A stretch of DNA of 60,431 nt from a bacterium (lineage in GTDB: Bacteria > Cyanobacteriota > Sericytochromatia > S15B-MN24 > VGJW01), in NCBI GenBank assembly GCA_021781555.1, contig JAJXWQ010000011.1, positions 1 through 60,431 of the forward strand, given 5' to 3'. The translations under genes were made by a program, and so were the position numbers. Numbering within the stretch: position 1 is the stretch's first letter; each line of letters begins with the position of its first letter. Positions 4,513-59,737 of this stretch are shown in pieces. The notes below the pieces were generated by a model. It saw only the letters and a program-made list of their open reading frames with translations, made no database searches and was not told the origin of the DNA.

Positions 4513-5150
4513 TCGCCGGTAGACCGCCTGGAAGCCGGCGCTGGCGGGTTGCCGCCGCGTCTCTCGTGCCGCTCATGGCCCTGGGCTGCTCCCTGAAGGG
4601 CCTGCCTCCGACCGATCCGTTCGCCGGTCTCATCTCGACCGATGGGGGGGCGGCGGTGCCCGACCTGGCGGCCCCCGCGGCCTCGGCCACTGCGAAGCAG
4701 ATCCCGTCCACGACTCCGACCCCGAGTGGCAGCAGCCGGACCCCGGTCCCTGGCAGCAGCCCGACCCCCGGTGGCAGCAGCCCGACCCCCGGTGGCGGCG
4801 GTCAGACCCTGGCTCCCAGCAGCCCGACTCCGATCCCTGGCGGCAGCCCGACCCCGAGTGGCAGCAGCCGGACCCCGGTCCCTGGCAGTAGCCCGACCCC
4901 CGGTGGCGGCGGTCAGACCCCGGCTCCCGGCGGCAGTCCGGCCCCCGGTGGCGGTGGTCAGACCCCGGCTCCCGGCAGTAGTCCGACCCCCGGTGGCAGC
5001 ACCCCGAAGCCCACCCCTACCCCGAAGCCCACCCCCACCCCGACTCCGGTTCCCACGGTGTCACCCCAGGGCCAGGCCGCGCTCGCCATCGGTGACACGC
5101 TTCCGGACACCCAGTCTCCGCTGCAGAACTTGCTGTCTCACCAGCCCTGA
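4509..5150 (+). CDS. Lipoprotein with long Pro/Thr/Gly/Ser repeat linker
   Basis: A 213-residue predicted lipoprotein starting on a GTG that overlaps the previous stop (GTGA). The signal peptide ends in ALGC with Cys at 27. From about residue 65 to 185 the chain is almost wholly repeats of the form PGSSPTPGGS / PGGGGQTPAP followed by a run of PKPTPTPTP. This is a flexible, envelope-spanning type of linker with potential O-glycosylation sites. The remaining C-terminus is short and has no known domain. It closes the lipoprotein operon. The repeat DNA may vary in copy number between strains. Confidence 0.75.
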   Translation: MIAGRPPGSRRWRVAAASLVPLMALGCSLKGLPPTDPFAGLISTDGGAAVPDLAAPAASATAKQIPSTTPTPSGSSRTPVPGSSPTPGGSSPTPGGGGQTLAPSSPTPIPGGSPTPSGSSRTPVPGSSPTPGGGGQTPAPGGSPAPGGGGQTPAPGSSPTPGGSTPKPTPTPKPTPTPTPVPTVSPQGQAALAIGDTLPDTQSPLQNLLSHQP

Positions 5151-5235: not shown

Positions 5236-5371
5236 AAACGCTACCGGTCCTCGTGCGGCAGCCCGGGAAGGTTTGAGCCATCGGGGCGACGGGTATCTGA
5301 GGAGGGGACCGGGCGAGGCACCGTGGCGGCGCCACGCGCGCGAGGGCGGTGGAGAGGGCAAGACTCCCCAG

Positions 5372-6490
5372 ATGGCGAGGGTCGATAGCGAGTTCCGAGC
5401 GGCGGTGCTGGCCGGCACCGCTCCGCGGAATGCCGCGCTTCCGGCCGTTCCAGCCGGTGAGCCACGGCCCTTCATTTTCCATGACACGCGATCCCTCACG
5501 CGTGGCGTCAAGAGCTCGATGCGCTGGTCGCAGACGCGTTTTGGCCGGGACGAGTCGGGCAGTGGCCTCGGTGGCGATCACCTGGATCTCTCGGGCCAGG
5601 GCAAAGCGGGCTCACGCGCCGCAGGCGATCCGCAGCTGGCCGATGCCCACCAGACGCTGACCGATGTCCTGGCGGAGCTGTCTCGCCGTGGTCTGGCCGA
5701 TCACCCCCGCGCCCGTGCCCTGGAGCACCTTCGAGACACGCTCTCGGGACCGGCGTCGCCAGGGGGGCCCGCGCCGGCGTCCCACCCAGGTTCCTGGCAG
5801 GCCGTTCGCGACGAGGCCGCGGATCTTTGGGAGGCACTGCTGGCCACGATCCGGTCCCCTGCCGGGCGGGTGGCCCACAAGACGGACCTTCTCGCCCGGG
5901 CGCAACAGGCTGCTGTCCGCGGCGATCCGGCCGGCGAGCGGCGGTGGCTGCGGCGCGTCCTCGTGGCCGATCCCGGCGACGCGACGGCCCACGTCAGGCT
6001 CGGGCGCCTGCACCTGGATGCCGGCCAGCTCGCCGAGGCCGAGCCTCACCTGGGGGCGGCTGTCGCGGCTCGGCCCAAGGAAGCAGCCGCCCACCTCGCT
6101 CTGGGCGAGCTCCACTACCGGCGCAAGGATCCCGACGCGGCGATCGCTTCTTTCGGCAGGGCCTTGCGGCTCAACCCCGATCATTCCGATGCCAACGCCT
6201 GGCTCGGCATCCTCTCCTACGACGCCCAACGTCCCGTCGAGGCTCAGCGCTTCCTCGAGCGCGCCATCGCCCTGGACTCCAACAACTCCGTGGCTCGCTA
6301 CTATCTGGCGCAGCTGAGCCTGGCCAATGGAGACAAGCTCCGGGCGGACTTCCAGCTTTCGGTTTTCCGCCGCCTCGAGCCCACGGCGCGGCTGGATCGT
6401 TTTTCCAGCACGGCCGATTCCCTGGCGTCCGGCTCGACGGGCAAGGGCTACAGTGGCTGGCAGATGCCACGTCGCGCAGCTGCCCGCTAG
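5372..6490 (+). CDS. TPR-repeat protein
   Basis: A 372-residue soluble protein. The N-terminal half is low-complexity and Pro/Arg-rich with no known domain. From about residue 170 to 335 there are four to five tetratricopeptide repeats, with the expected spacing (for example LGRLHLDAGQLAEAEPHL and LGELHYRRKDPDAAIASFGRAL). These should form a protein-binding superhelix. I chose the ATG at 5372, which has GGAGAGGG about 13 nt upstream; an open frame extends further 5' to 5273 but has unlikely composition. The TAG stop is the border CTAG of the following repeat. The gene lies upstream of motA-motB in the same direction but is separated by two repeat copies. Its partner is unknown. Confidence 0.75.
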   Translation: MARVDSEFRAAVLAGTAPRNAALPAVPAGEPRPFIFHDTRSLTRGVKSSMRWSQTRFGRDESGSGLGGDHLDLSGQGKAGSRAAGDPQLADAHQTLTDVLAELSRRGLADHPRARALEHLRDTLSGPASPGGPAPASHPGSWQAVRDEAADLWEALLATIRSPAGRVAHKTDLLARAQQAAVRGDPAGERRWLRRVLVADPGDATAHVRLGRLHLDAGQLAEAEPHLGAAVAARPKEAAAHLALGELHYRRKDPDAAIASFGRALRLNPDHSDANAWLGILSYDAQRPVEAQRFLERAIALDSNNSVARYYLAQLSLANGDKLRADFQLSVFRRLEPTARLDRFSSTADSLASGSTGKGYSGWQMPRRAAAR

Positions 6491-6683
6491 GCTGCTCCCG
6501 GTTTGACGGGTTCGGGCCAAAGGAGTCAAACGGGGCCCGGTTGCGCAGCGCAGCGACCGCGCAGAGGGACCCGTTCAAGCTGCAAGCGGGTTAGCAAGGT
6601 TCGGGCCAAAGGAGTCAAACGGGGCCCGGTTGCGCAGCGCAGCGACCGCGCAGAGGGACCCGTTCAAGCTGCAAAAGATATAG
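6487..6683 (+). repeat. Two tandem copies of the palindromic repeat
   Basis: Copy one spans 6487-6594 (108 bp, CTAG at the left border, TTAG at the right). Copy two begins on that same TTAG and runs to 6683, lacking about 15 bp near its left end. Both belong to the variant with TTCGGGCCAAAGGAGTC and CAGCGCAGCG. The left CTAG contains the stop codon of the TPR gene. Confidence 0.9.
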
Positions 6684-8544: not shown

Positions 8545-9222
8545 CTAGCGGGTGGCCGGTGCCTTCTCGCCGATCAGGACGTGCTTGACCTCGGTCTGGT
8601 GGCCGCTGCGCGTGACCGCGATGATCTCGTCACCCTCCATCAGGACCGTGTTGCCCGTCGGGACCTGGACCGAACCCTGACGCAGGATCGACACCAGGAT
8701 CGTCTCCGGGGGCAACTCGAGGCCGGCAATGGCTCGTCCCACCGAGGGGGAATCAGCCGAGAGCGTGGCTTCGACCATGATGAGGTGCCCGTGCTGCATG
8801 GTCAGGTAGTGGACCATGCTCTTGGGGTTGATCTCCTGGTCGATCATGTTGGCCACCGCCGCGGTGACGTTGATGAGGGCATCGACGCCCATCGAGCGGA
8901 AGAGTTCCTCGTTGCGCGGGTCGTTGATACGGGCGATCGTGCGATTGACCTTGAAGATCTCCTTGGCGATCTGGCAGACGACCAGGTTGTCCTGATCCCG
9001 ACCTGCCACCGACACCACACAATCGGCGCGATTGCAGCCCGCCTCGGCCAGCAGGCGGGGGCTCGTGCCGTCTCCCGTCTGCACCATGACGTCGAAGTGG
9101 TCGGCGATCTGCTCGCAGACCCTGAGGTCCTTTTCGATGACCGAGACTTCGTGCCCCTCGGCCAGGAGTGTCCGGACCAGGTGGTATCCGATCTTTCCGC
9201 CGCCGACGACCAGGATGTACAC
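8545..9222 (-). CDS. TrkA-like potassium channel/transporter regulator (RCK_N + RCK_C)
   Basis: A 225-residue cytosolic regulatory subunit. The N-terminal Rossmann fold (VVGGGKIG at about 5-12) binds NAD(H) or ATP. The C-terminal RCK_C (TrkA_C) domain starts at about 140 and ends in the usual GD.I.. strand. Such proteins gate potassium transporters such as Trk/Ktr. The GTG at 9222 is chosen because GGAGAAGG lies 8 nt upstream and the Rossmann strand begins immediately. It follows a second RCK_N gene by 73 nt in the same direction, so the two form a pair. No potassium pore subunit is encoded nearby. Confidence 0.85.
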   Translation of the reverse strand: MYILVVGGGKIGYHLVRTLLAEGHEVSVIEKDLRVCEQIADHFDVMVQTGDGTSPRLLAEAGCNRADCVVSVAGRDQDNLVVCQIAKEIFKVNRTIARINDPRNEELFRSMGVDALINVTAAVANMIDQEINPKSMVHYLTMQHGHLIMVEATLSADSPSVGRAIAGLELPPETILVSILRQGSVQVPTGNTVLMEGDEIIAVTRSGHQTEVKHVLIGEKAPATR

Positions 9223-9295
9223 GACTAGATCCTTCTCCAGTTGAACACGGCCCCCGGCGCGGCGTTCCACCGCCCACGGGCTCCAGGGAAGCGGC

Positions 9296-12539: not shown

Positions 12540-12647
12540 CTAGGCCTTTTGCAGTTTGAACGGGTCCCTCTGCGCGGTCGCTTCGCTGCGCAACCGGGCC
12601 CCGTTTGACTCATCGGGCTCGATCCATTCAAACCGGGAGCACTCTAG
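12540..12647 (-). repeat. Full copy of the palindromic repeat
   Basis: A 108-bp copy, CTAG at both borders (12540-12543 and 12644-12647), in the reverse orientation. It belongs to the variant with the ATCGGGCTCGATCC segment. A second fragment of the other variant, with GCGGGGCCCCGTTTGACTCC, lies at 12714-12752 just upstream of the MFS gene. Confidence 0.9.
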
Positions 12648-14150: not shown

Positions 14151-14777
14151 ATGACTTCTCGCTTTGCAGTTGGCCTTGCTGGCGCTCTGATTCTCGCATC
14201 GGCACTTCCGCTCCGGGCCCAACCGGCGGCCATGCACCCGCCGCTGCCGCCGGCCCCGAGGATGTCGGGCATGCCTTGCATGGTGGCGTCTGGGAGCATG
14301 CGATCCGGGATGATGCCCTGGGGGCGGATGGGCGCGGGGCGGATGGGCGCGGGGCCGATGGGAATGATGGGCCGCAGGTTTGCCGGGCGCCAGGCGCTGC
14401 TTGCCGAGGCGCAGGCCAAGCAGCAGGCCGACCTGCAGGGCAGCCTGCAGGCGCTGCTCAACCAGCTTGTCGGCTCGGGCAAGGCGATCGTCCGGGTGCA
14501 CCTGGAGCTCGAGCGGGCTTTTCGCCGCCTGCACAACACCCTCTACTCGCCGGTCAAGGTCAACGGCAAGCCGGTTGCCGGGCGCTTCGACGAGCAGGAA
14601 AGCTGGACGGTCGTCCCGCCCGGCGGCATCCAGCGCATGACCATCGCGGTGCTGCTGCCGACCAGTGTCGGCGCGGCCGAGGTTCCCAAGCTCGCCGCGG
14701 CCATCGCGGCTGCTGCCGGCCTGGATCCGGCTCGTCGCGACGTCCTCGCGATCCACAGGGTCTCGCTGGCACCCTAG
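14151..14777 (+). CDS. Secreted protein with FliF/YscJ C-terminal-like domain and Met-rich linker
   Basis: A 208-residue exported protein. The ATG at 14151 has GGAGG 7 nt upstream; the signal peptide ends near residue 24 (LPLRAQ). Residues 38-76 are extremely Met/Gly-rich. Residues about 98-208 resemble the periplasmic C-terminal domain of the flagellar MS-ring protein FliF: ALLNQLVGSGKAIVRVHLEL corresponds to the LL..IVG.GN..V.V...LD segment, and GGIQRMTIAVLL...AAGLDPARRDVLAI to the G.I.RLSVAVLVD...VG.D..RGD.V.V segment. Unlike FliF, it has no ring-building motifs and no membrane anchors. It may be an accessory to the flagellum or another ring, or an unrelated look-alike. The stop TAG is the CTAG border of a repeat. 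Confidence 0.6.
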   Translation: MTSRFAVGLAGALILASALPLRAQPAAMHPPLPPAPRMSGMPCMVASGSMRSGMMPWGRMGAGRMGAGPMGMMGRRFAGRQALLAEAQAKQQADLQGSLQALLNQLVGSGKAIVRVHLELERAFRRLHNTLYSPVKVNGKPVAGRFDEQESWTVVPPGGIQRMTIAVLLPTSVGAAEVPKLAAAIAAAAGLDPARRDVLAIHRVSLAP

Positions 14778-14941
14778 ACCTTTTGCAGTTTGAACGGGTC
14801 CCTCTGCGCGGTCGCTTCGCTGCGCAACCGGGCCCCGTTTGACTCATCGGGCTCGATCCATTCAAACCGGGAGCACTCTGGGCCTTTTGCAGTTTGAACG
14901 GGTCCCTCTGCGCGGTCGCTTCGCTGCGCAACCGGGCCCCG
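14774..14941 (-). repeat. One full and one truncated copy of the palindromic repeat
   Basis: Copy one is 14774-14881 (108 bp). It starts with the CTAG that ends the upstream gene and ends on CTGG, a one-base variant of the border. Copy two shares that tetranucleotide and stops at 14941 after the GGGCCCCG arm, missing about 44 bp. The stop codon of the convergent glycosyltransferase gene follows within 10 bp. Confidence 0.9.
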
Positions 14942-20348: not shown

Positions 20349-20456
20349 CTAGAGTGCTCCCGGTTTGAATGGATCGAGCCCGATGAGTCAAACGGGGCCC
20401 GGTTGCGCAGCGAAGCGACCGCGCAGAGGGCCCCCTTCAAACTGCAAAAGGCCTAG
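20349..20456 (+). repeat. Full copy of the palindromic repeat
   Basis: A 108-bp copy with CTAG at both borders (20349-20352 and 20453-20456). Unlike most copies it lies between divergent genes rather than at a gene end. Confidence 0.92.
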
Positions 20457-37130: not shown

Positions 37131-37342
37131 TTAGAGTGCTCCCGGTTTGAATGGATCGAGCCCGATGAGTCAAACGGGGCCCGGTTGCGCAGCGAAGCGA
37201 CCGCGCAGAGGGCCCCGTTCAAACTGCAAAAGGCCCAGAGTGCTCCCGGTTTGAATGGATCGAGCCCGAGGAGTCAAACGGGGCCCGGTTGCGCAGCGAA
37301 GCGACCGCGCAGAGGGCCCCGTTCAAACTGCAAAAGGTCTAG
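37131..37342 (+). repeat. Two exact-length tandem copies of the palindromic repeat
   Basis: Copy one is 37131-37238 and copy two is 37235-37342. They share CCAG at 37235-37238, a variant of CTAG. The outer borders are TTAG and CTAG. The two copies are almost identical, which suggests recent duplication with a 104-bp period. Confidence 0.93.
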
Positions 37343-41780: not shown

Positions 41781-41888
41781 CTAGAGTGCTCCCGGTTTGA
41801 ATGGATCGAGCCCGATGAGTCAAACGGGGCCCGGTTGCGCAGCGAAGCGACCGCGCAGAGGGCCCCGTTCAAACTGCAAAAGGCCTAG
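41781..41888 (+). repeat. Full copy of the palindromic repeat
   Basis: A 108-bp copy with CTAG at both ends, between two convergent genes. The right-hand CTAG (41885-41888) contains the stop codon (TAG on the minus strand) of the 81-residue gene. Confidence 0.93.
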
Positions 41889-42130
41889 CTGGGGTTGGCC
41901 ATCACGTGGTCGACGATCGCGTCGGCCATGGCCTCGTAGTGGTCACGCACGATCTCGAGGTTGGACTCCGCGTCGGGCGGGAAGAGCTTCAGGACAACCT
42001 GCTTGGGATTCTCGAGGCTGACCGACCAGGGGACATAGCGTGCGATCTCGTCCGCGCTGTAGAAGAGGATGCCGCAGAAGAGCGAGCCGTCCTTGCGCTC
42101 GATGACGACGTTCTCGATGTCGACCGTCAT
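41885..42130 (-). CDS. Small cytoplasmic protein, function unknown
   Basis: An 81-residue acidic protein without signal peptide or membrane segment (begins MTVDIENVVIERKDGSLFCG). It has a mixed alpha/beta pattern and one Cys. Its stop codon is the border of a repeat copy. TATAAG (42137-42142) lies 6 nt upstream of the ATG, with AAGG inside the gap, so the transcript is leaderless or nearly so. No family is recognised. Confidence 0.6.
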   Translation of the reverse strand: MTVDIENVVIERKDGSLFCGILFYSADEIARYVPWSVSLENPKQVVLKLFPPDAESNLEIVRDHYEAMADAIVDHVMANPS

Positions 42131-46244: not shown

Positions 46245-46424
46245 CGCGGGAGCGAATGACGGCTGACCACCAGGGTCTCGCCATCATGGCGCGAGCGCCG
46301 GGCATCAGCCACGGCCTCCAGCCTTTCTGAAGAGCTCACAAGAGGACGTCTTCTGGTTGTCCTGCAACAACGGGAGGGACACCGTCCGCGGGACGACTGG
46401 CGGCGCCAGGGTGATCCAGGTTGG

Positions 46425-46500
46425 ATAGGTTCGGGCCCGAGGAGTCCAACGGGGCCCGGTCGCCACGCAACCGAGCCCCGTTCAAACCGCAAAAGGTCAG
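46425..46500 (+). repeat. Shortened copy of the palindromic repeat
   Basis: A 76-bp copy with ATAG at the left and GTCAG at the right. The loop has lost about 20 bp (CGGTCGCCACGCAACCG replaces the usual segment). The last bases contribute to the TGA stop of the minus-strand TPR-GT2 gene. The region 46245-46424 shows no gene I can support. Confidence 0.8.
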
Positions 46501-49904: not shown

Positions 49905-49911
49905 CACTGTG

Positions 49912-50077
49912 CCAGGGAGCTCCCGGTTTGAGTGGATCGGGCCAAAGGCGTCAAACGGGGCCCGGTTGCAAAGTGGTGCCGGACGCAAGGGAACGCAGCG
50001 AGAGCCGCTTGCTCGCTGGCTGTTGTGCGTGCGGCCGGAGCGCGCAGGGGGATCCGTTCGAACTGCAAAAGGTATCG
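49912..50077 (+). repeat. Expanded copy of the palindromic repeat
   Basis: A 166-bp copy. The ends match the family (CCAGGGAGCTCCCGGTTTGAG at the left, CGAACTGCAAAAGG at the right). The usual inner loop is replaced by about 90 bp containing its own inverted segments (GCAGCGAGAGCCGCTTGCTCGCTGGC region). It sits between two co-directional minus-strand genes. Confidence 0.75.
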
Positions 50078-50079
50078 AC

Positions 50080-52881
50080 TCAACGGCTCCCCCAACCGGC
50101 ATGGGCTGCATGGAACGACGCCCGCCGCAGCCCGTCCGGACTCGTGTCCGCCAGGACCGCCAGACCACATGCGACGGCCTCCCGACGGCACCTGTCGTCT
50201 CCGACGTCGAGGTATGCCTGACAGGCGCTGTACAGCCCAGCCAGGGACTCCCTGGCGATCGCCTGGCTCACGATCACGACGTCCGCGATGGCCTCGGGAT
50301 CGTGACCCAACCTCGTCAGCTCACCGAGCACACGCTCCTCGATCCCCGCAGCGTCCGGGCCGGCCCTCAGCACCAAGGCGACGTCATCCTCGGGCCCGAA
50401 GCTCTGCAAGTACGTGTCGAGTGCCAAGACCCAAGCCGCCGAATCCCACCGTGGGATCGCCAGGAAATTGAAACGCCGCAGGCCTTCAATCTGTAGCGGC
50501 CGCGCGTCCGGATGGAACACCCCGGGATCGACGTGATCGGCCTGAAACCGCCTCGGCGTGATCCTGGACAGCTCGCGCATGCGAGCCTCGTACCGATCGG
50601 CCACGTGCTTCCAGGTATAGGCGCCGGCGATGCGCGCACGCGCCTTCATGCCTTTGGATCTGGCCTCCTCGGCGTGGTCGACGACGTGCTGCATGGAGCG
50701 TGCGAGTGCGGCGACGTCCGGTTCGGCCAGGACATATTCGATGGCGGCAGGCGAGCTGCCCTCGGGGATACAGCGAACGAGGCTGGCGGGCACCAGATAC
50801 GATGTTTCGTCGTCGCAATAGTCGAGAGCGGCCCCGAAGCCCGTCACGATGGTGGGGAGGCCGGAGGCCATGGCCTCGGCGATCGGCATGCAGAAGGCTT
50901 CGCCGCGATAGGGGGCGACCAGCACGTCGCAGGCGCGGTACAGAGCAGCCATCTGGACCTCGGTCAGATCGTCCTCGACGAGCTCGACCTCGATCCCAGG
51001 AGCCCTGGCGCGAATCGTCTCGACCAGCTCGCGCGCCGAGACCCCCTGATAGAAGGTCTGCACGCCCGTGGCCTTCACGACCAGGCACGTGTTCGTCGCA
51101 TTTCCGAATCCGGCGGCATAGGCCAGCAACGCCGCATCCATGCCCTTGCGATGGATGGCGCTGCCGACGAAGAGGAAGCGAAACGAACGGTGGGTCCCGA
51201 GCGGATAGCTGGGGCCATCGGGCCGGAAGATCTCGACATCGACCCCGTTGGGGACCACGACGACCCGCTCGTCCGGAACCCCGGCCCGCGTGAAAGCGGC
51301 CTTGGAGTAGGTCGAGGGGGTCCAGACCTCGTCCACGCTCTCGAGCAGATACGGCAGCCAGGCCTCGGGAATGCTGCCGTACTCCCAGGGCTGTAGCATC
51401 ACCCAGGCGCCGTCCCGCGGCGGCTCGAACTTGGGAGGCCACAGGTGCCGGACGTGCACCTGCGGGGGAGAGCTCGTCGGCTTGCGATGGGCGGCCTCAA
51501 TGGCCATGAGCCGAGGATCCCCCATGCTCGTGAACTGAGCCGGCTCGAAGGGCTCGATGGAGATCTCGAGCCCCTGGCGATCGAGAAACTGCGAGCAAAC
51601 CTCGCGGTTGATGAGGGCGAGGCTGTGATAGGCGAACTGGGTACCCTCCCAGATCACCGTGACCTGGTCGCGGCCTCGCGTGGAGGTATCCTCGCCCGCT
51701 CGAAAACGACGGGGGATGAGGCCCGCCAGAGCCCGGATGCGAGCCTCGTACCGATCGGCAGCGTGCTTCCAGGTAAAGGCGCCCACGATGCGTTCTCGCG
51801 CCCTGGCGCCCCTGGCACGGGCCTCGTCGGGGTGGGCCAGCGCGTGCTCCATCAGCTCCACGAGAACGTCGATGTCGGGGCTCGCCAGCCAGTACTCGAG
51901 GGCTGGCGGGGGGAAATCCAGCAAGTTGCACCGGATGGTTCCAGCTGGCACCAGATACGACGTCTCGTCGTCGCAGTAGTCCAGCGCGGCCCCGGATCCG
52001 GTGACAAGGGTCGGCAGGCCGGTAGCCATGGCCTCCGCGATCGGCATGCAGAAGCCCTCGCCCCGATACGGAGCGACCAGCACGTCGCACGCCCGGTACA
52101 GGGCAGCCATCTGGGCCTCTGTCAGATCGTCCTCGATCAGCTCGACCTCGAGGCCAGGGTCCCGGGCCCAGGCGGCTTGCACCATGCCGCGGGCCGAGTG
52201 GTCCTTGTAGACGGACGCAGCGCCCGTCCCCTTGATGACGAGACACGCATCCGCGTGACTCCCGACGGCCCGGGCATAGGCGGCCAGCGTGACGTCCAGT
52301 CCCTTGCGAGCTTCCGCGTTGCCGACGAAGAGGAACTTGAACGGGCGAGCGGTCTTGAGCGGGAACTTTGGCCCCTCGGGGTTGAAAAGATCGGGGTCCA
52401 CTCCGTTGGGAATCACGACGACGCGCTCGTCGGGAATCCCTGCCAGGGTGAAGGCCCGCTTTGAAAAGGTCGAGGGGGTCCAGACCTCGTCGACTCGGTC
52501 CAGAATGTGGGGGACCCAGGTCCGGGGGATGCAGCCGTATTCCCAGGGTTGCATCAGCACCCACGCCCCGCTGCCAGGGGGCTCGAACTTGGGAGGCCAC
52601 ATATGCCGCACATGCACCTGGGCCGGCGAGCCACCCTGGCGGCGGTGGGCTGCCTCCAGCGCGACCAGCTTGGCATCCCCCCCGCTCGAGAACTGGGCCG
52701 GCTCGTAGGGCTCGATCGAGAGTTCGAGCCCCCGGCGATCCAGGAGCTGCGAGCAGACCTCGCGGTTGATGAGAGCGAGGCTGTGATAGGCGAACTGGGT
52801 GCCTTCCCAGACCACCGTGGCTGGCGCAAGGGGTCGGCCGGGGACGATACCGTCCAGATGACCGGCGCTAGCGTCTACCAT
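50080..52881 (-). CDS. Tandem GT4-GT4 glycosyltransferase with C-terminal module
   Basis: A 933-residue protein built from two consecutive complete GT4 units. Unit one is about 23-397 and unit two about 407-781. Both start VxWEGTQFAYHSLALINREV and share PPKFEPP, WTPSTxSK, IPNGVD or VPNGVD, and DVLVAPYRGE.FCMPIAEAMA, so they arose by duplication. Residues about 782-933 match a module seen in three other glycosyltransferases here. The family uses nucleotide-sugar donors; two units could add two residues or one may be structural. The ATG at 52881 starts just before the first unit; the frame continues upstream to 53037 without a ribosome binding site. Confidence 0.85.
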   Translation of the reverse strand: MVDASAGHLDGIVPGRPLAPATVVWEGTQFAYHSLALINREVCSQLLDRRGLELSIEPYEPAQFSSGGDAKLVALEAAHRRQGGSPAQVHVRHMWPPKFEPPGSGAWVLMQPWEYGCIPRTWVPHILDRVDEVWTPSTFSKRAFTLAGIPDERVVVIPNGVDPDLFNPEGPKFPLKTARPFKFLFVGNAEARKGLDVTLAAYARAVGSHADACLVIKGTGAASVYKDHSARGMVQAAWARDPGLEVELIEDDLTEAQMAALYRACDVLVAPYRGEGFCMPIAEAMATGLPTLVTGSGAALDYCDDETSYLVPAGTIRCNLLDFPPPALEYWLASPDIDVLVELMEHALAHPDEARARGARARERIVGAFTWKHAADRYEARIRALAGLIPRRFRAGEDTSTRGRDQVTVIWEGTQFAYHSLALINREVCSQFLDRQGLEISIEPFEPAQFTSMGDPRLMAIEAAHRKPTSSPPQVHVRHLWPPKFEPPRDGAWVMLQPWEYGSIPEAWLPYLLESVDEVWTPSTYSKAAFTRAGVPDERVVVVPNGVDVEIFRPDGPSYPLGTHRSFRFLFVGSAIHRKGMDAALLAYAAGFGNATNTCLVVKATGVQTFYQGVSARELVETIRARAPGIEVELVEDDLTEVQMAALYRACDVLVAPYRGEAFCMPIAEAMASGLPTIVTGFGAALDYCDDETSYLVPASLVRCIPEGSSPAAIEYVLAEPDVAALARSMQHVVDHAEEARSKGMKARARIAGAYTWKHVADRYEARMRELSRITPRRFQADHVDPGVFHPDARPLQIEGLRRFNFLAIPRWDSAAWVLALDTYLQSFGPEDDVALVLRAGPDAAGIEERVLGELTRLGHDPEAIADVVIVSQAIARESLAGLYSACQAYLDVGDDRCRREAVACGLAVLADTSPDGLRRASFHAAHAGWGSR

Positions 52882-53099
52882 GGTGCAGCATCTCGCTCGT
52901 TGATCTCGGATCAAAAATTCCTGGCAAAGCCTCGGAAACTGGCCACTCAAGGTGTTATGTCGGGCGAAAATCAGATGAACTTGAGGGCGCGCTCCCCCCG
53001 GAACAGCTGCCCCCGTGAAGATGTCATCTTTCCCCACCGATGATTCCTATTACTACTGCCAACGAAACCAGACTGAACCTGCCCCGCGAAAGGAACCGC

Positions 53100-56000
53100 A
53101 TGCCGCTCGACCCGCCACTGACCGTCCTGGGCCTCCCCGACTGGAGCACGGACGCTCCGGAAGCCCTGGTCCGGCGCTTCGTGGCAGACGCCTACCCGAG
53201 GACGGATATCAAGCTGGCACTGGGAGTCCCCTCCCGGAATATCGAGGGCAGTACGTTCGAGCGGCGTATCGCCAGCCTCCTGGAATCTCTCGACCTCGCC
53301 CCGACAGCGGATTTTCCGGATCTGGAACTGTTCGAGAGCCCCACCACGGACAGCGAGTGGAAAGCTTGTCTCGCTCGGGCTAGCATCCTCTGGACAGCGG
53401 GCGCCACGCTGCCCGACCTGGCGAGCAGGGGAAAGGAGCTCGATCGACTGCAGGCGAGCAGCCTGGAAGGACTCGCGCTTGCCCTCTGGCTGGCCGAACC
53501 GGTCGGCCCCGAGGATCTGGTGCCTTACGATCCCTCGGATCTGCGCGCCTTCTGGGACGACATGGCGGCCATCCGGGTCCTGAGATTCAGGTTCGAGCGC
53601 ACGAATTCCGGTGCCCATTGCGACACGCTCGTTTACAGCCCCGCGCTTCGCCGGCGCATGATGTGGCAGTTTCTGGCGATCGAGGAATCCGATGGGGTCC
53701 TTCGGCTCCGCCTGCCTGCCTATCTGAGCGAGATGCCCGCGAATCTCCAGGATCCGTTCCGCCTGGCGGTCCTGGAATCCTGGAGCGAGGTCCTGGCGGA
53801 TCCGGCGTACGAACGCCAGCCGATCGTCGTCGTCGAGGTGCCTGACGGGGAACTTCGAGCCTCCGATGCCGGCGATGGTCGCGTCACGCCCGGATATGCT
53901 TTCAACGAGCTGTTCGTTCACAGCGCCAAGCGTTATCGGATGGCCCAGCACCTGTGCCAGAGCAAGACCGTCCTGGATCTGAGCTGCGGGTCGGGCTATG
54001 GCACTCGACTGCTGGCGAAGACAGCTCACCAGGTGACGGGCTGCGACGTCGATCCGGAGGCCGTTGCCTATGGCGAGGAGGTTTACCCGGCCCCGAACGT
54101 CGAACGTAAAACAATTTCCCTCATCCGTGCGAGCGCGCCCCTTCCGTTCGAGACCGGAAGCTTCGATGCCGTGACGAATTTCGAGGTGATCGAGCACGTG
54201 CCCTGGCCGGAGATGGAAGCCTTCTTTTCCGAGATCAAGCGTGTGCTGCGACCGGACGGCACGCTGATCGTCAGCACGCCCAACAAGACCATCTACCGCA
54301 ACTATCCGGACCCCAACCACGTCTCGCTGATGACCGCACCCGAGTTCGATGCGCTTCTGAAGGTCCACTTCGCAGATGTCGCCATGTTCAGCCAGGTGCG
54401 TTCTGGCGGCAGCGGCGACGTCTTTGCCGAGTTCGACATCGTGAGCGGGGCCGACGACCGGCGAGAGATATTCCTGGCGGTCTGCCGGGGACCGCGCTCC
54501 GAGCCCCGTCCGTTCACGCTCGAGGGCCGGTCCGACGCGCTCCGGATCCTGGTATTCAACTGGCACGAACCCTACCTGGCTTTGCTGGCCCGGACGGGCC
54601 ATCGCTTCGACGTGGGAGACTGGATGCCACGCGCCGATGGCATGCGCTCCTGGGATCCGCGCAAGCGCCCCGTTCCCGCCAACATGAACTTGGTTCATGC
54701 CGAGGAGACCATCCGGGCCAACCTGGCCGCAGGCAGCTACGACCTCGTCGTGTGCCAGACTCCGTACGATCTGGCCGTCGTCGGAGATGCCGAGGTGCCG
54801 GTCCTTTACCTGACCCACAACGCCTGGCATGCCGATTATCATTCGGACCTCACGCAGGGCGAGCAGGTACGGCGGCAGCTTCACGAGCACCTGACCCGTC
54901 GGGGCGCTCTTTTTGCGTCGATCTCGACCATGAAACTCGAAAGCTGGCAGATCCCTGGCCTGGTCATTCCGCCGGGCATCGACGTCCGCGACTACCCGCT
55001 GGGGTCCCACGAGCGACCGGAAACCCTCACGGTCGGCGTCATGCTTCGGGCTCGCCCGATCTTCGATCACGCCTTCCTGGAGCAAGTGACCACAGGATTT
55101 CCCCACCAGGTTTTCGGCTTCAATCCGGACCTTGAAGGCGTCGATTACGCCAAATCCTGGCAAGAGCTGATCACGGCGTTCGGGCAGGCCCGCGTCTACG
55201 TCCACGCGACGGCCTGGCCGTACGAGGACGGATATAACCTGGCACTGCTTGAAGCCATGGCCTGCGGTTCTCCGGTCGTCGCCCTGGCCGGGCCCAACGT
55301 CCCGATCGAGGACGGGGTCACCGGATTCGTGGGGACCGATCCCGCCTCCCTCCGGCAGCGCGTCAAGGAGTTGCTGGCCGACCTTGATCTCGCCCGGAAA
55401 CTGGGACGTGCGGCGCGGGAAACGGTGCGGGAACGGTTCGGCCTGGAACCCTTCGTTTCGCGCTGGAACGATGCCTTCCTGGCGGCGCGGGAACAGTTCA
55501 TCCGCCATCGGCAGAGCCATGCGAGAGCCTCTTCGGGCCGCGGTTCCGCGCTGCGACCGCGCATCCTCCTGGCCATCAGCAGCAATGCCATCTCGACCAG
55601 CGCTTACTTCGAGCGGGCCTTTCGCCAGGACTGCGACGTCGTGACGGTCGGTCCCGTGATCGACAGGGCGACACTCGGCCAGTGGAAGCAGGTCACCGAC
55701 CAGCATGCCTTGAAGCCGCCCGGCTCCGGCGATCAGAAGATGGATCTGATCGCCCGCGTCTCCCGCCCGTGCGACATCCCCTGGCCCAAGGGCCAGGCCA
55801 GCATCCCCGAGATCCTCGCGGCCTTGCCTGCCGGCTGGACACCCGACCTGCTCGTCTGGATCGACAACTACTTCGAGATGATGCCCACGGGCTTCGAGCA
55901 CCTGCCCTGCCCCTCGGCCTGCCTGATCGGAGACACGCATACCCAGATGGACTGGCGCATCGAGTATGCCAGGAACTTCGACCACGTGTTCGTGATGTTC

Positions 56001-57401
56001 AATCGACAGCACATCGGCGTATTCAGGCAAGCCGGGTGCCGCAATGTCGAATGGCTACCGGCCGCTTGCGATCCAGATATCCACATCTGCACCGGCGCCG
56101 ACAAGGCCTACGATGTCGGGTTCGTCGGGCAGACCCTGCGCCAGTGGCACCCGGATCGGGTGCGCCTGCTGGAGCGGTTGCAGGAAGCCGGGTTCGACGT
56201 TCACATCGATACCAAGATCCTCCAGGAGATGGCCCTCGTCTTCAACCGGTCCCGCATCATCTTCAACCGGAGCCTGAAGCAGGATCTGAACATGCGGGTC
56301 TTCGAGGCACTGTCGACCGGGAGTCTGCTCTTGACCGATCGCCTTCCGGCCGAGTCCGGCCTCGAGCTCCTGTTCAAGGACCGAGAGCAGCTGGTGCTGT
56401 ACGACGAGGACAACCTCGAGCAGCTGGTAGCCTACTACCTCGAACACCCCGAGGAGCGCGAGCGCACCGCGGCCCGCGGGAGGACCGAGGCCCTGGCCCA
56501 CCATACCTATCGCCACCGGGTTCGCCAGATCCTGGCGGCCGTGGGCTTGAGCCGCCCGGACACAGACGGGGAGTTCGAGCAGCACCCCGCACTGGCCAGG
56601 AAGCCCACCGCCGATCGCAGAGAGGCCGGAGACGGATCGCCGCTGGCCAGCATCGTGATTCCGCTCTTCAACAAGGCGGACTTCACCCGGCAGTGCCTCG
56701 AGGCCATCGAGGCCAGCTCGGGCGAGGAGATCCCCTACGAAGTCGTCCTCGTCGACAACGGGTCGACGGACGGCACGAGGGAGCTGCTCGGCATGCTCGA
56801 GGGCGATGTCAAGATCCTCCGCAACGAGAGCAATCTCGGCTTCGCAGCGGCCTGCAATCAGGGAGCCAGGCTGGCGAGCGGAAAGTACCTGATCTTCCTG
56901 AACAACGATACGGTGCCCCAGCCAGGCTGGCTCTCGGCGCTGGTCCGGTCGGCGCACGCGGACGCCACGATCGGCGTGGTCGGCTGCAAGCTCCTGTATC
57001 CGGGCTCAGGCTTGATCCAGCACGCCGGCATGGACTGGGCCGACGGGACCCCGGACCACCCGTTCCGCCACGCCGCGCCCGATCTTCCCGAGGTCAGCAC
57101 GCCCCGGGATCTGGACATGGTGACGGGGGCCTGCATGCTCGTGCGGCGGGAGCTCTTCGAAGGGTTGGGCGGCTTTGACGAGGGATATCGCAACGGCTGC
57201 GAGGACGTGGATCTCTGCCTGTCGGCCCGAGAAGCTGGCTACCGGGTGCGGTACGAGCCCGCGAGCGTCCTTTTCCACCACGAAGGGACCTCCGACGGCC
57301 GGTTCGCGCATGTGCAGGCCAATCTCATCCGCCTGCGGGAGCGGTGGGGGCACCGCTTCGATGCCGAGGGTCGGTTCCTGGCGGAGGCCCAGGCGCTCTA
57401 G
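53100..57401 (+). CDS. Multi-domain methyltransferase/glycosyltransferase (1433 residues)
   Basis: One continuous polypeptide with at least five parts. (1) Residues 1-115 match the module found at the C-termini of neighbouring glycosyltransferases. (2) About 290-420 is a class I SAM methyltransferase (VLDLSCGSGYG at 291-301, then TGCDVDPEAV and NFEVIEHVPWP). (3) About 500-810 is a GT-B-type domain (LLEAMACGSPVVALAGPNVP). (4) About 830-1150 is a CgeB-like glycosyltransferase (PRILLAISSNAISTSAYFERAF; LNMRVFEALSTGSLLLTDRL). (5) About 1175-1433 is a GT2 domain (SIVIPLFNKADFTRQCL, VDNGSTDGT, LNNDTVPQPGW). The ATG at 53100 has AAAGGA 5 nt upstream. The stop overlaps the convergent gene on a shared CTAG. 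It may assemble a methylated oligosaccharide on one chain. Confidence 0.85.
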   Translation: MPLDPPLTVLGLPDWSTDAPEALVRRFVADAYPRTDIKLALGVPSRNIEGSTFERRIASLLESLDLAPTADFPDLELFESPTTDSEWKACLARASILWTAGATLPDLASRGKELDRLQASSLEGLALALWLAEPVGPEDLVPYDPSDLRAFWDDMAAIRVLRFRFERTNSGAHCDTLVYSPALRRRMMWQFLAIEESDGVLRLRLPAYLSEMPANLQDPFRLAVLESWSEVLADPAYERQPIVVVEVPDGELRASDAGDGRVTPGYAFNELFVHSAKRYRMAQHLCQSKTVLDLSCGSGYGTRLLAKTAHQVTGCDVDPEAVAYGEEVYPAPNVERKTISLIRASAPLPFETGSFDAVTNFEVIEHVPWPEMEAFFSEIKRVLRPDGTLIVSTPNKTIYRNYPDPNHVSLMTAPEFDALLKVHFADVAMFSQVRSGGSGDVFAEFDIVSGADDRREIFLAVCRGPRSEPRPFTLEGRSDALRILVFNWHEPYLALLARTGHRFDVGDWMPRADGMRSWDPRKRPVPANMNLVHAEETIRANLAAGSYDLVVCQTPYDLAVVGDAEVPVLYLTHNAWHADYHSDLTQGEQVRRQLHEHLTRRGALFASISTMKLESWQIPGLVIPPGIDVRDYPLGSHERPETLTVGVMLRARPIFDHAFLEQVTTGFPHQVFGFNPDLEGVDYAKSWQELITAFGQARVYVHATAWPYEDGYNLALLEAMACGSPVVALAGPNVPIEDGVTGFVGTDPASLRQRVKELLADLDLARKLGRAARETVRERFGLEPFVSRWNDAFLAAREQFIRHRQSHARASSGRGSALRPRILLAISSNAISTSAYFERAFRQDCDVVTVGPVIDRATLGQWKQVTDQHALKPPGSGDQKMDLIARVSRPCDIPWPKGQASIPEILAALPAGWTPDLLVWIDNYFEMMPTGFEHLPCPSACLIGDTHTQMDWRIEYARNFDHVFVMFNRQHIGVFRQAGCRNVEWLPAACDPDIHICTGADKAYDVGFVGQTLRQWHPDRVRLLERLQEAGFDVHIDTKILQEMALVFNRSRIIFNRSLKQDLNMRVFEALSTGSLLLTDRLPAESGLELLFKDREQLVLYDEDNLEQLVAYYLEHPEERERTAARGRTEALAHHTYRHRVRQILAAVGLSRPDTDGEFEQHPALARKPTADRREAGDGSPLASIVIPLFNKADFTRQCLEAIEASSGEEIPYEVVLVDNGSTDGTRELLGMLEGDVKILRNESNLGFAAACNQGARLASGKYLIFLNNDTVPQPGWLSALVRSAHADATIGVVGCKLLYPGSGLIQHAGMDWADGTPDHPFRHAAPDLPEVSTPRDLDMVTGACMLVRRELFEGLGGFDEGYRNGCEDVDLCLSAREAGYRVRYEPASVLFHHEGTSDGRFAHVQANLIRLRERWGHRFDAEGRFLAEAQAL

Positions 57402-58708
57402 CCCAGAGACGGCCCTGCGAGGCCGGTTCCTTCGGCCCTGGCCTCGCAGCTGTGTAGCCACGCTTCCAGTGCCGGACGTTCGGGCGGGTCGAGCACCGGT
57501 TTGCCGAGAATCCGGGCCCAGTGGCGGGTATCCCTGGCCCGGGTCGGGGCGGCAGCAATCACCCCCTGGCAAGGCTTCAGCAGTCCCGCCAGGCGGTGCC
57601 CTCCCTCTACGGACAGGACGTCCGGGGCAGCCTCCCCCCGCGTCTCCAGGGCTGCCCCAATCTGCTCGAGGGCCACGTCGGTCGCGCCAAAGACCACCAG
57701 CGCCACCGGGTCCTCGGCCCTGAACCCCGCCGCATAAGCTTCGACGGCCGGCAGCCAGGCCTCAGCCGGCCCGGACCAGTCGGCATCCAGCAGCAGGCTG
57801 AAGCGCTTGAGCCCGTCGATCGCGACACCCTCGACGGTCAACGGTACGCTGGCCGGATCCGGCAACGGCACGTGGAGGTCCTTGCCGACGAACTTGCCCT
57901 GCAGCAGCTCGACCAACCTGTCGATGCCCCACCGATCCTCGATCGGCTCCTCGAGGTTCCACTTCTGCCGGAAGATCGCCTCGTTACGCTTGAGTGAGGC
58001 CCCGTAGTCGACCTTTTCCCCCATGAAGGTTCGAGATCCGAAATGGTGGATGAAAACGTCATCTGCCATCCAGATCCGCTTGCCGGCGAGCTGCGCGCGC
58101 AGGCAGAAGTCGTCGTCCTCGAAGTTCCCGCTTCCGAATCGGGTGTCGAGCCCTCCGATAGTCTCGACGAGCTCCGCCCGGATGAGCATCGCAAACCCGA
58201 TCACGATAGGCAGAAACAGCCCCTGGCCGGCGTGCCCTTCGGCGCGATCGCGGGCAAAATCGTGCATCTCGACCATGTTCTTGTACGGAACGTCGAGGAG
58301 TAGCTGTGCGCCCGACACGCAATTGGACCGTGGGCCCACAATCCCGATCGTCGGATCCACCTCCAGTGGCCGCAGCATCCGAGACAGCCAGCCCTCCGTC
58401 ACGATGACGTCGTTGTTGAGAAGCAGAACGTACTCGCCGCGGGCCAGCGCCATCCCTTGGCTGCACCCCCCCGCGAAGCCTTCGTTCTGCTCGTTGAGGA
58501 CGATCTTGACGTTGTCGCGCTGCTCGGCCAGCTCGAGCAGGTACATCCTCGTGCCGTCCGTCGACCCGTTATCCACCACGATGAGTTCGAAGGGCTCGGG
58601 AGTGAACGCATAGATCGACTCGAAGCACATTCGCGTGTACTCGAGCTGGTTGAGGGTCAAGATGACGATGCTGGTGAGGCCAGGGTCGCGACTGCCACCC
58701 GCGTTCAC
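57398..58708 (-). CDS. GT2 glycosyltransferase with C-terminal module
   Basis: A 436-residue protein. Residues about 10-280 are a family-2 glycosyltransferase (TSIVILTLNQLEYTRMCFESI, VDNGSTDGT, GFAGGCSQGMA, LNNDVIVTEGW, FEDDDFCLRAQ). It is a close paralogue of the gene at 49904. Residues about 295-425 carry the shared module (GLKRFSLLLDADWSGPAEAWLPAV, then DPVALVVFGA and APDVLSVEGG). The GTG at 58708 overlaps the upstream stop (GTGA) and has GAGG 8 nt upstream, so translation is coupled. Confidence 0.88.
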   Translation of the reverse strand: MNAGGSRDPGLTSIVILTLNQLEYTRMCFESIYAFTPEPFELIVVDNGSTDGTRMYLLELAEQRDNVKIVLNEQNEGFAGGCSQGMALARGEYVLLLNNDVIVTEGWLSRMLRPLEVDPTIGIVGPRSNCVSGAQLLLDVPYKNMVEMHDFARDRAEGHAGQGLFLPIVIGFAMLIRAELVETIGGLDTRFGSGNFEDDDFCLRAQLAGKRIWMADDVFIHHFGSRTFMGEKVDYGASLKRNEAIFRQKWNLEEPIEDRWGIDRLVELLQGKFVGKDLHVPLPDPASVPLTVEGVAIDGLKRFSLLLDADWSGPAEAWLPAVEAYAAGFRAEDPVALVVFGATDVALEQIGAALETRGEAAPDVLSVEGGHRLAGLLKPCQGVIAAAPTRARDTRHWARILGKPVLDPPERPALEAWLHSCEARAEGTGLAGPSLG

Positions 58709-59526: not shown

Positions 59527-59633
59527 GGCGCCTCGATCACGGGTCTCACGACCTGCATCAGCCGGCTCACGACCTCGTACTCGAGCAGCGGCGCCAGTGC
59601 GACTCCGTTGTACAGGAACGGCTCGCCCTCTAG
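59523..59633 (-). pseudogene. 3' remnant of a gene cut off at the repeat border
   Basis: On the minus strand an open frame of about 35 codons runs from the repeat border CTAG (59630-59633) to a TGA at 59523-59525. It reads EGEPFLYNGVALAPLLEYEV and continues to VVRPVIEAP. It overlaps the next gene by ATGA, the normal operon junction in this window, so it looks like the true C-terminus of a lost upstream gene. The 5' part is replaced by the repeat and insertion-sequence DNA. The family is not recognised. Confidence 0.5.
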
Positions 59634-59737
59634 GCCTTTTGCAGTTTGAACGGGGCCCTCTGTGCGCTCGCTTCGCTGCGCAACCGGGCCCCGTTTGACT
59701 CATCGGGCTCGATCCATTCAAACCGGGAGCACTCTAG
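59630..59737 (-). repeat. Full copy of the palindromic repeat
   Basis: A 108-bp copy with CTAG at both ends (59630-59633 and 59734-59737), in reverse orientation. Its left border truncates a coding region and its right border abuts the left end of an IS1380-like element. Confidence 0.93.

Follow-up and report, generated by a model that had tools for sequence, protein, structure and literature searches.

The repeats dispersed in the window (the whole stretch of DNA analysed, 60,431 nucleotides) are, with high probability, copies of a young, high-copy, non-autonomous MITE of 102 bp, which would enter the TA of YTAR tetramers by a reaction of the Tc1/mariner-IS630 kind. Its copies have a fixed size and YTAR borders, duplicate the TA, preserve stop codons, are biased towards gene ends and are absent from orthologous sites of a related genome. 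The features of the window are collected in Table 1.

Table 1. The shared CTAG, its two genes and the copies of the repeat in the window
Feature	Position	Strand	Remarks
Vacant CTAG, common TAG stop of two convergent genes, acceptable target	57398-57401		
Large multidomain glycosyltransferase/methyltransferase gene, with its stop in the shared CTAG	53040-57401	+	Start is the first ATG; Pfam domains
Family-2 glycosyltransferase gene, ending in the shared CTAG	57398-58708	-	Pfam domain; G001 homologue
Reference 102-bp element between two CTAGs	41784-41885	+	Right border is the TAG stop of the - gene 41885-42130
102-bp element, CTAG/CTAG	12543-12644	-	G001 without it, one TA, 104 bp net
102-bp element and truncated second copy to about 14942	14777-14878	-	The + gene 14328-14777 stops at the left border CTAG
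102-bp element, CTAG/CTAG	20352-20453	+	
Two tandem elements, period 104, left border TTAG	37134-37339	+	
102-bp element, CTAG/CTAG	59633-59734	-	
Older diverged copies, period 89	6490-6683	+	Downstream of the TAG stop at CTAG 6487-6490

With the copy at 41784-41885 as reference, the left end of the element was matched 227 times, at no more than two mismatches, in the 3.82-Mb genome to which the window belongs, while the reversed control pattern gave no match; the same left-end pattern was matched four times in the genome of a sister species of the same genus (hereafter G001). A first look gave 513 candidates in the former genome and 55 in the latter. The borders were read in a sample made up of the window and 20 further stretches of its genome (456,021 bases), which contains 48 paired left and right ends, 46 of them exactly 102 bp apart. 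The left and right tetramers are CTAG/CTAG in 30 of these elements, TTAG/CTAG in four, CTAG/CTAA in three and TTAG/CTAA in one, and the other ten present substitutions, slips or one diverged end. The bases just outside the element are usually CTA or TTA 5' of the left end and TAG or TAA 3' of the right end. Since the left outer base (Y) and the right outer base (R) vary independently around a constant TA, the target is Y-TA-R, mostly CTAG, only the TA is duplicated, and the flanking G and C are the element's own. CTAG at the repeat borders is not a product of chance. The preliminary description of this DNA had taken the whole tetramer as the duplicated target, which the mixed left and right borders (4+3+1 among the 48 paired elements) rule out and the single TA at an empty site in G001 also contradicts.

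With its terminal G and C the element restores a CTAG on either side, which accounts for the preserved TAG stops and for the tandems, whose period of 104 bp (102 plus the TA) is the one expected if a new copy enters the border CTAG of an earlier copy. Among the features that define MITEs, the element is short (102 bp), has no transposase gene, occurs in many near-identical dispersed copies, as counted by the left-end matches, and is flanked by a target-site duplication, with TA on each side and a single TA at the empty site. Its ends are only loosely inverted, agreeing by eye at about 10 of 18 positions (a common GTTTGAA and scattered positions). The element folds strongly (z of -3.9 on one strand and -2.1 on the other), and no Rfam family reaches its gathering score in the window. 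That the element serves as an intrinsic terminator was considered and rejected, as there is no terminator-like site at the copy at 41784; near 57398 the sole terminator-like match is at 57709-57697 (one found against 0.2 expected, sd 0.6). Diverged modular relatives lie beside the young copies (1-351, 6490-6683, 46405-46480 and 49911-50074), with periods of 88-89 and elsewhere of about 60. Other repeats of the window are located inside genes, namely direct repeats at 50544-52480 with a spacing of 1158 bp, apparently an internal duplication of the gene 50080-52815 (-), and an imperfect direct-repeat array at 4693-5023, with offsets of 21-87 bp, in the predicted gene 4566-5150.

Of eight loci compared with G001, only C91:13037 shows an empty site that is clean at either flank. 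Here G001 reads GACGGA-TA-GTTTGCGG, against GACGCC-TA-(102 bp)-TA-GTTTGCGG in the genome with the element; the stop of the upstream gene in the latter is that TAG, and a TAG is found at the same place in G001. At the locus 12543-12644 of the window, G001 lacks 104 bp and retains one TA, with 7 bp common to the flank and the element end blurring the junction. C91:19590 and C91:22982 present a CTAG without the element in G001, each with one diverged flank. For the remaining loci, all in the window, G001 shows TGA instead of TAG (14774), a replaced flank (20349), a gene that likewise ends in CTAG and is followed by mostly different sequence (6487), and an IS630-type element that starts at apparently the same CTAG, with other sequence beyond (41781). 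The last case is suggestive of a CTAG that may have been a target common to the 102-bp element and the IS630-type element, and it is left at that strength because synteny is lacking on the right and there is an 11-base difference in the left flank.

From the perspective of the genes, three repeat-bordering CTAGs (6487, 14774 and 41885) provide the TAG stops of the predicted genes 5273-6490 (+), 14328-14777 (+) and 41885-42130 (-), and the CTAG at 8545 is the end of the gene 8545-9270 (-), all as first described. To compare occupied with vacant sites, the elements (44, in 42 groups) were removed in silico before genes were called, leaving 451,445 bases, 87.6% of them coding according to a dicodon model trained on these sequences, which is not a curated annotation. 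The occupied sites number 42, of which 27 fall exactly at the stop of a predicted gene, 14 are intergenic and one lies within a coding sequence. The right TA is altered at four of the sites at stops, which makes the joined tetramer less sure, and without them the count is 23 of 38. Vacant CTAGs number 150, leaving out 27 masked ones near repeat relics, and comprise 36 at stops, 52 intergenic, one at an edge and 61 inside genes. Occupied sites are thus more often at stops (Fisher p 4e-6; conservative 5e-5), and they remain so when sites inside genes are set aside (p 0.008; conservative 0.03). Relative to the other CTAGs outside genes, the excess at stops is moderate. Expressed as the occupied share in the sample, elements sit in 19 of 55 CTAG stops, 9 of 62 intergenic or edge CTAGs and 1 of 62 intragenic CTAGs.

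The bias extends to the arrangement of the neighbouring genes. Among the occupied sites outside genes with known neighbours, 17 of 38 lie in a convergent context. The corresponding figures are 52 of 365 for adjacent gene pairs (p 2e-5) and, for vacant CTAGs outside genes, 14 of 88 (p 0.001). CTAG itself is scarce in the window (25 observed, 51 expected from trinucleotides), and the avoidance of genes would be due partly to this scarcity and partly to the loss of harmful insertions. The proposal that the repeat enters CTAG at gene ends and leaves the coding sequence intact is therefore borne out, more exactly for YTAR, with the stop preserved as well and with 27 of 42 sites at stops. A lack of CTAG enrichment at gene ends, or insertion just as frequent within genes, had been named beforehand as evidence against it; CTAG proved to be enriched at gene ends, and one of the 42 insertions is within a gene. 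This provides a base-level view of how a compact genome can come to carry hundreds of copies of a mobile element with hardly any damage to its genes, owing to a target that is scarce within genes and to termini that rebuild the stop codon. It is also a warning that in this lineage a TAG stop or the end of a gene is often part of a transposon border.

Regarding the mobilising enzyme, target and duplication both agree best with the IS630/Tc1-mariner kind, as the element targets and duplicates TA and prefers CTAG, and an IS630-kind DDE transposase probably moves it. The single DDE_3 match of the genome is to a protein of 386 aa, which also has HTH_32 and HTH_29 and is encoded in an intact-looking IS630-type element (L053 610-2131). 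This element has 20-bp perfect terminal repeats (CTAGTACCTCTGCACAGAGG), which start with CTAG, and is likewise seated in a CTAG. Five IS630-type ends were found in the genome, two of which have a 102-bp copy in their border CTAG; ends of more IS630-type copies are located near contig ends in C13, C28 and C173. As direct parent of the 102-bp element this IS630-type element was rejected, since the CTAG target is common to both but the termini differ. No termini like those of the 102-bp element were found on transposase-bearing elements of the genome, where the sole DDE_3 element differs, and for this reason the element is said to work like an IS630-type MITE rather than to be a MITE of the IS630-type element found. 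The assembly consists of 181 contigs, several of which end near copies, so the mobilising transposase could be missing from it.

Other enzymes explain the borders less well. The copies could be REP-like, moved by a Y1 (RAYT) transposase, with the CTAG as a tetranucleotide at the foot of a hairpin and no duplication of the target. The strong fold of the element fits hairpin recognition, and both genomes of the genus have a Y1 transposase-like gene (Y1_Tnp; L087 1456-1884 and L086 1456-1884), single-copy and in the same neighbourhood, about 150 bp upstream of which, in the genome of the window, lies a diverged fragment that resembles the family by eye. Insertion of this kind leaves no duplication, whereas TA is duplicated here, as shown by Y and R varying independently on either side of an invariant TA and by G001 having exactly one TA at its clean empty site. 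Moreover, no full copy with CTAG ends flanks the Y1 gene, and its protein, read against the HUH motif with its two His, apparently lacks the second one (HVV, by eye); the motif appears to be degenerate and the gene is possibly domesticated. Movement by RAYT is accordingly regarded as unlikely. Even less credit is given to an IS5-type transposase making 4-bp YTAR duplications, which is the habit of IS5-group elements and for which the genome has six DDE_Tnp_1 matches, because the tetramers differ between left and right in 8 of 38 elements with clean borders, as predicted by TA duplication and forbidden by a 4-bp one, and the inverted pairs listed for these six loci include none that is like the element's ends.

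The CTAG at 57398-57401 is the last tetramer of the ORFs 53040-57401 (+) and 57398-58708 (-) and reads TAG on each strand. This stop common to a convergent pair had been recognised in the preliminary description, where the + ORF was given a start at 53100 instead of 53040, the first ATG. Both stops are credible, because Pfam glycosyltransferase domains run almost to the end of the + gene (residue 1437 of 1453), and for the - gene there are a Pfam glycosyltransferase domain and a 75%-identical, near-full-length homologue in G001 (residues 4-428 of 436). Convergent 4-base overlaps of CTAG, CTAA, TTAG or TTAA are described as a known class (PMC2174442), and exact 4-bp overlaps occur in 2 of the 52 adjacent convergent gene pairs in 456 kb, one with CTAG and one with CTAA, so that the shared stop is ordinary and by itself unremarkable.

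The same site had also been taken for an empty insertion site, and this part of the description found no support. Vacant unmasked CTAGs number 150 in the 451 kb; this is the sole one among them that serves as the stop of two genes, and none of the 42 occupied sites is at a stop common to two genes. It is highly improbable that 57398 was once occupied, or is specially favoured for insertion, and was emptied by excision: an unoccupied CTAG at a convergent gene end does offer the context enriched for copies, but 36 CTAGs at stops stand vacant in 451 kb, the repeat search of the window revealed no remnant of the 102-bp element near 57398, and the site is probably lineage-specific, as in G001 the homologue of the - gene has a TGA stop and is followed by other genes, with neither a CTAG nor a convergent partner there. 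The CTAG is a valid vacant target without any sign of past use, and taken singly it carries none of the element's wider significance.

According to the mechanism proposed here for the 102-bp element, it would enter the TA of 5'-YTAR-3', most often CTAG, and duplicate the TA alone, its outermost G (left) and C (right) completing a CTAG at each border. A TAG or TAA stop hit by the element would then stay a TAG stop in either orientation, and each border would be a fresh CTAG open to a further copy, giving rise to the 104-bp tandems. Copies would be retained where they are harmless, that is, at stop codons and above all between convergent genes, selection and the scarcity of CTAG within genes being the probable causes of the distribution, and the CTAG at 57398-57401 would be an acceptable target left vacant by happenstance. 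More tentatively, and with rather more doubt than confidence, stop codons may be considered a safe haven for the element: a tetramer that the G and C ends restore either way, scarce in genes and common as a stop, might allow silent filling and self-seeded tandem arrays.

IS630-type elements reportedly prefer the TA in CTAG, as the title of a 1991 paper by Tenzen and Ohtsubo has it. In the literature, covered by titles and abstract openings, nothing was found on the insertion of IS630-type MITEs into stop codons, nor was exact stop rebuilding by a terminal G and C met in these listings, and the present family is a new example. The IS630/Tc1-mariner elements IS630 and ISY100 likewise insert into TA with a 2-bp TA duplication and a preference for CTAG, the duplication by ISY100, of the IS630 family, being documented (PMC2170065). 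Unlike them, the present element is 102 bp long, has no internal transposase gene and carries weak terminal repeats unlike those of any transposase-bearing element found. The Correia elements known from Neisseria duplicate TA and have 26-bp terminal inverted repeats, and they are set beside the present family by description, not by sequence. As outlined in PMC3049150, they are of similar size, and they share its many copies. The same source presents RUP of Streptococcus pneumoniae as a non-autonomous repeat of 107 bp that is associated with an IS630 element and, like other repeats, occurs more often than expected between convergent genes; RUP thus resembles the present element in its non-autonomy, size and enrichment, but it is AT-rich, with terminal repeats like those of IS630-Spn1, whereas the present element is GC-rich, with no matching transposase found. 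Finally, 36 copies of the BOX elements of S. pneumoniae are reported to encode the stop codon of the adjoining gene (PMC3049150): in that case the repeat supplies the stop, while the present element rebuilds exactly the stop that its target already had.
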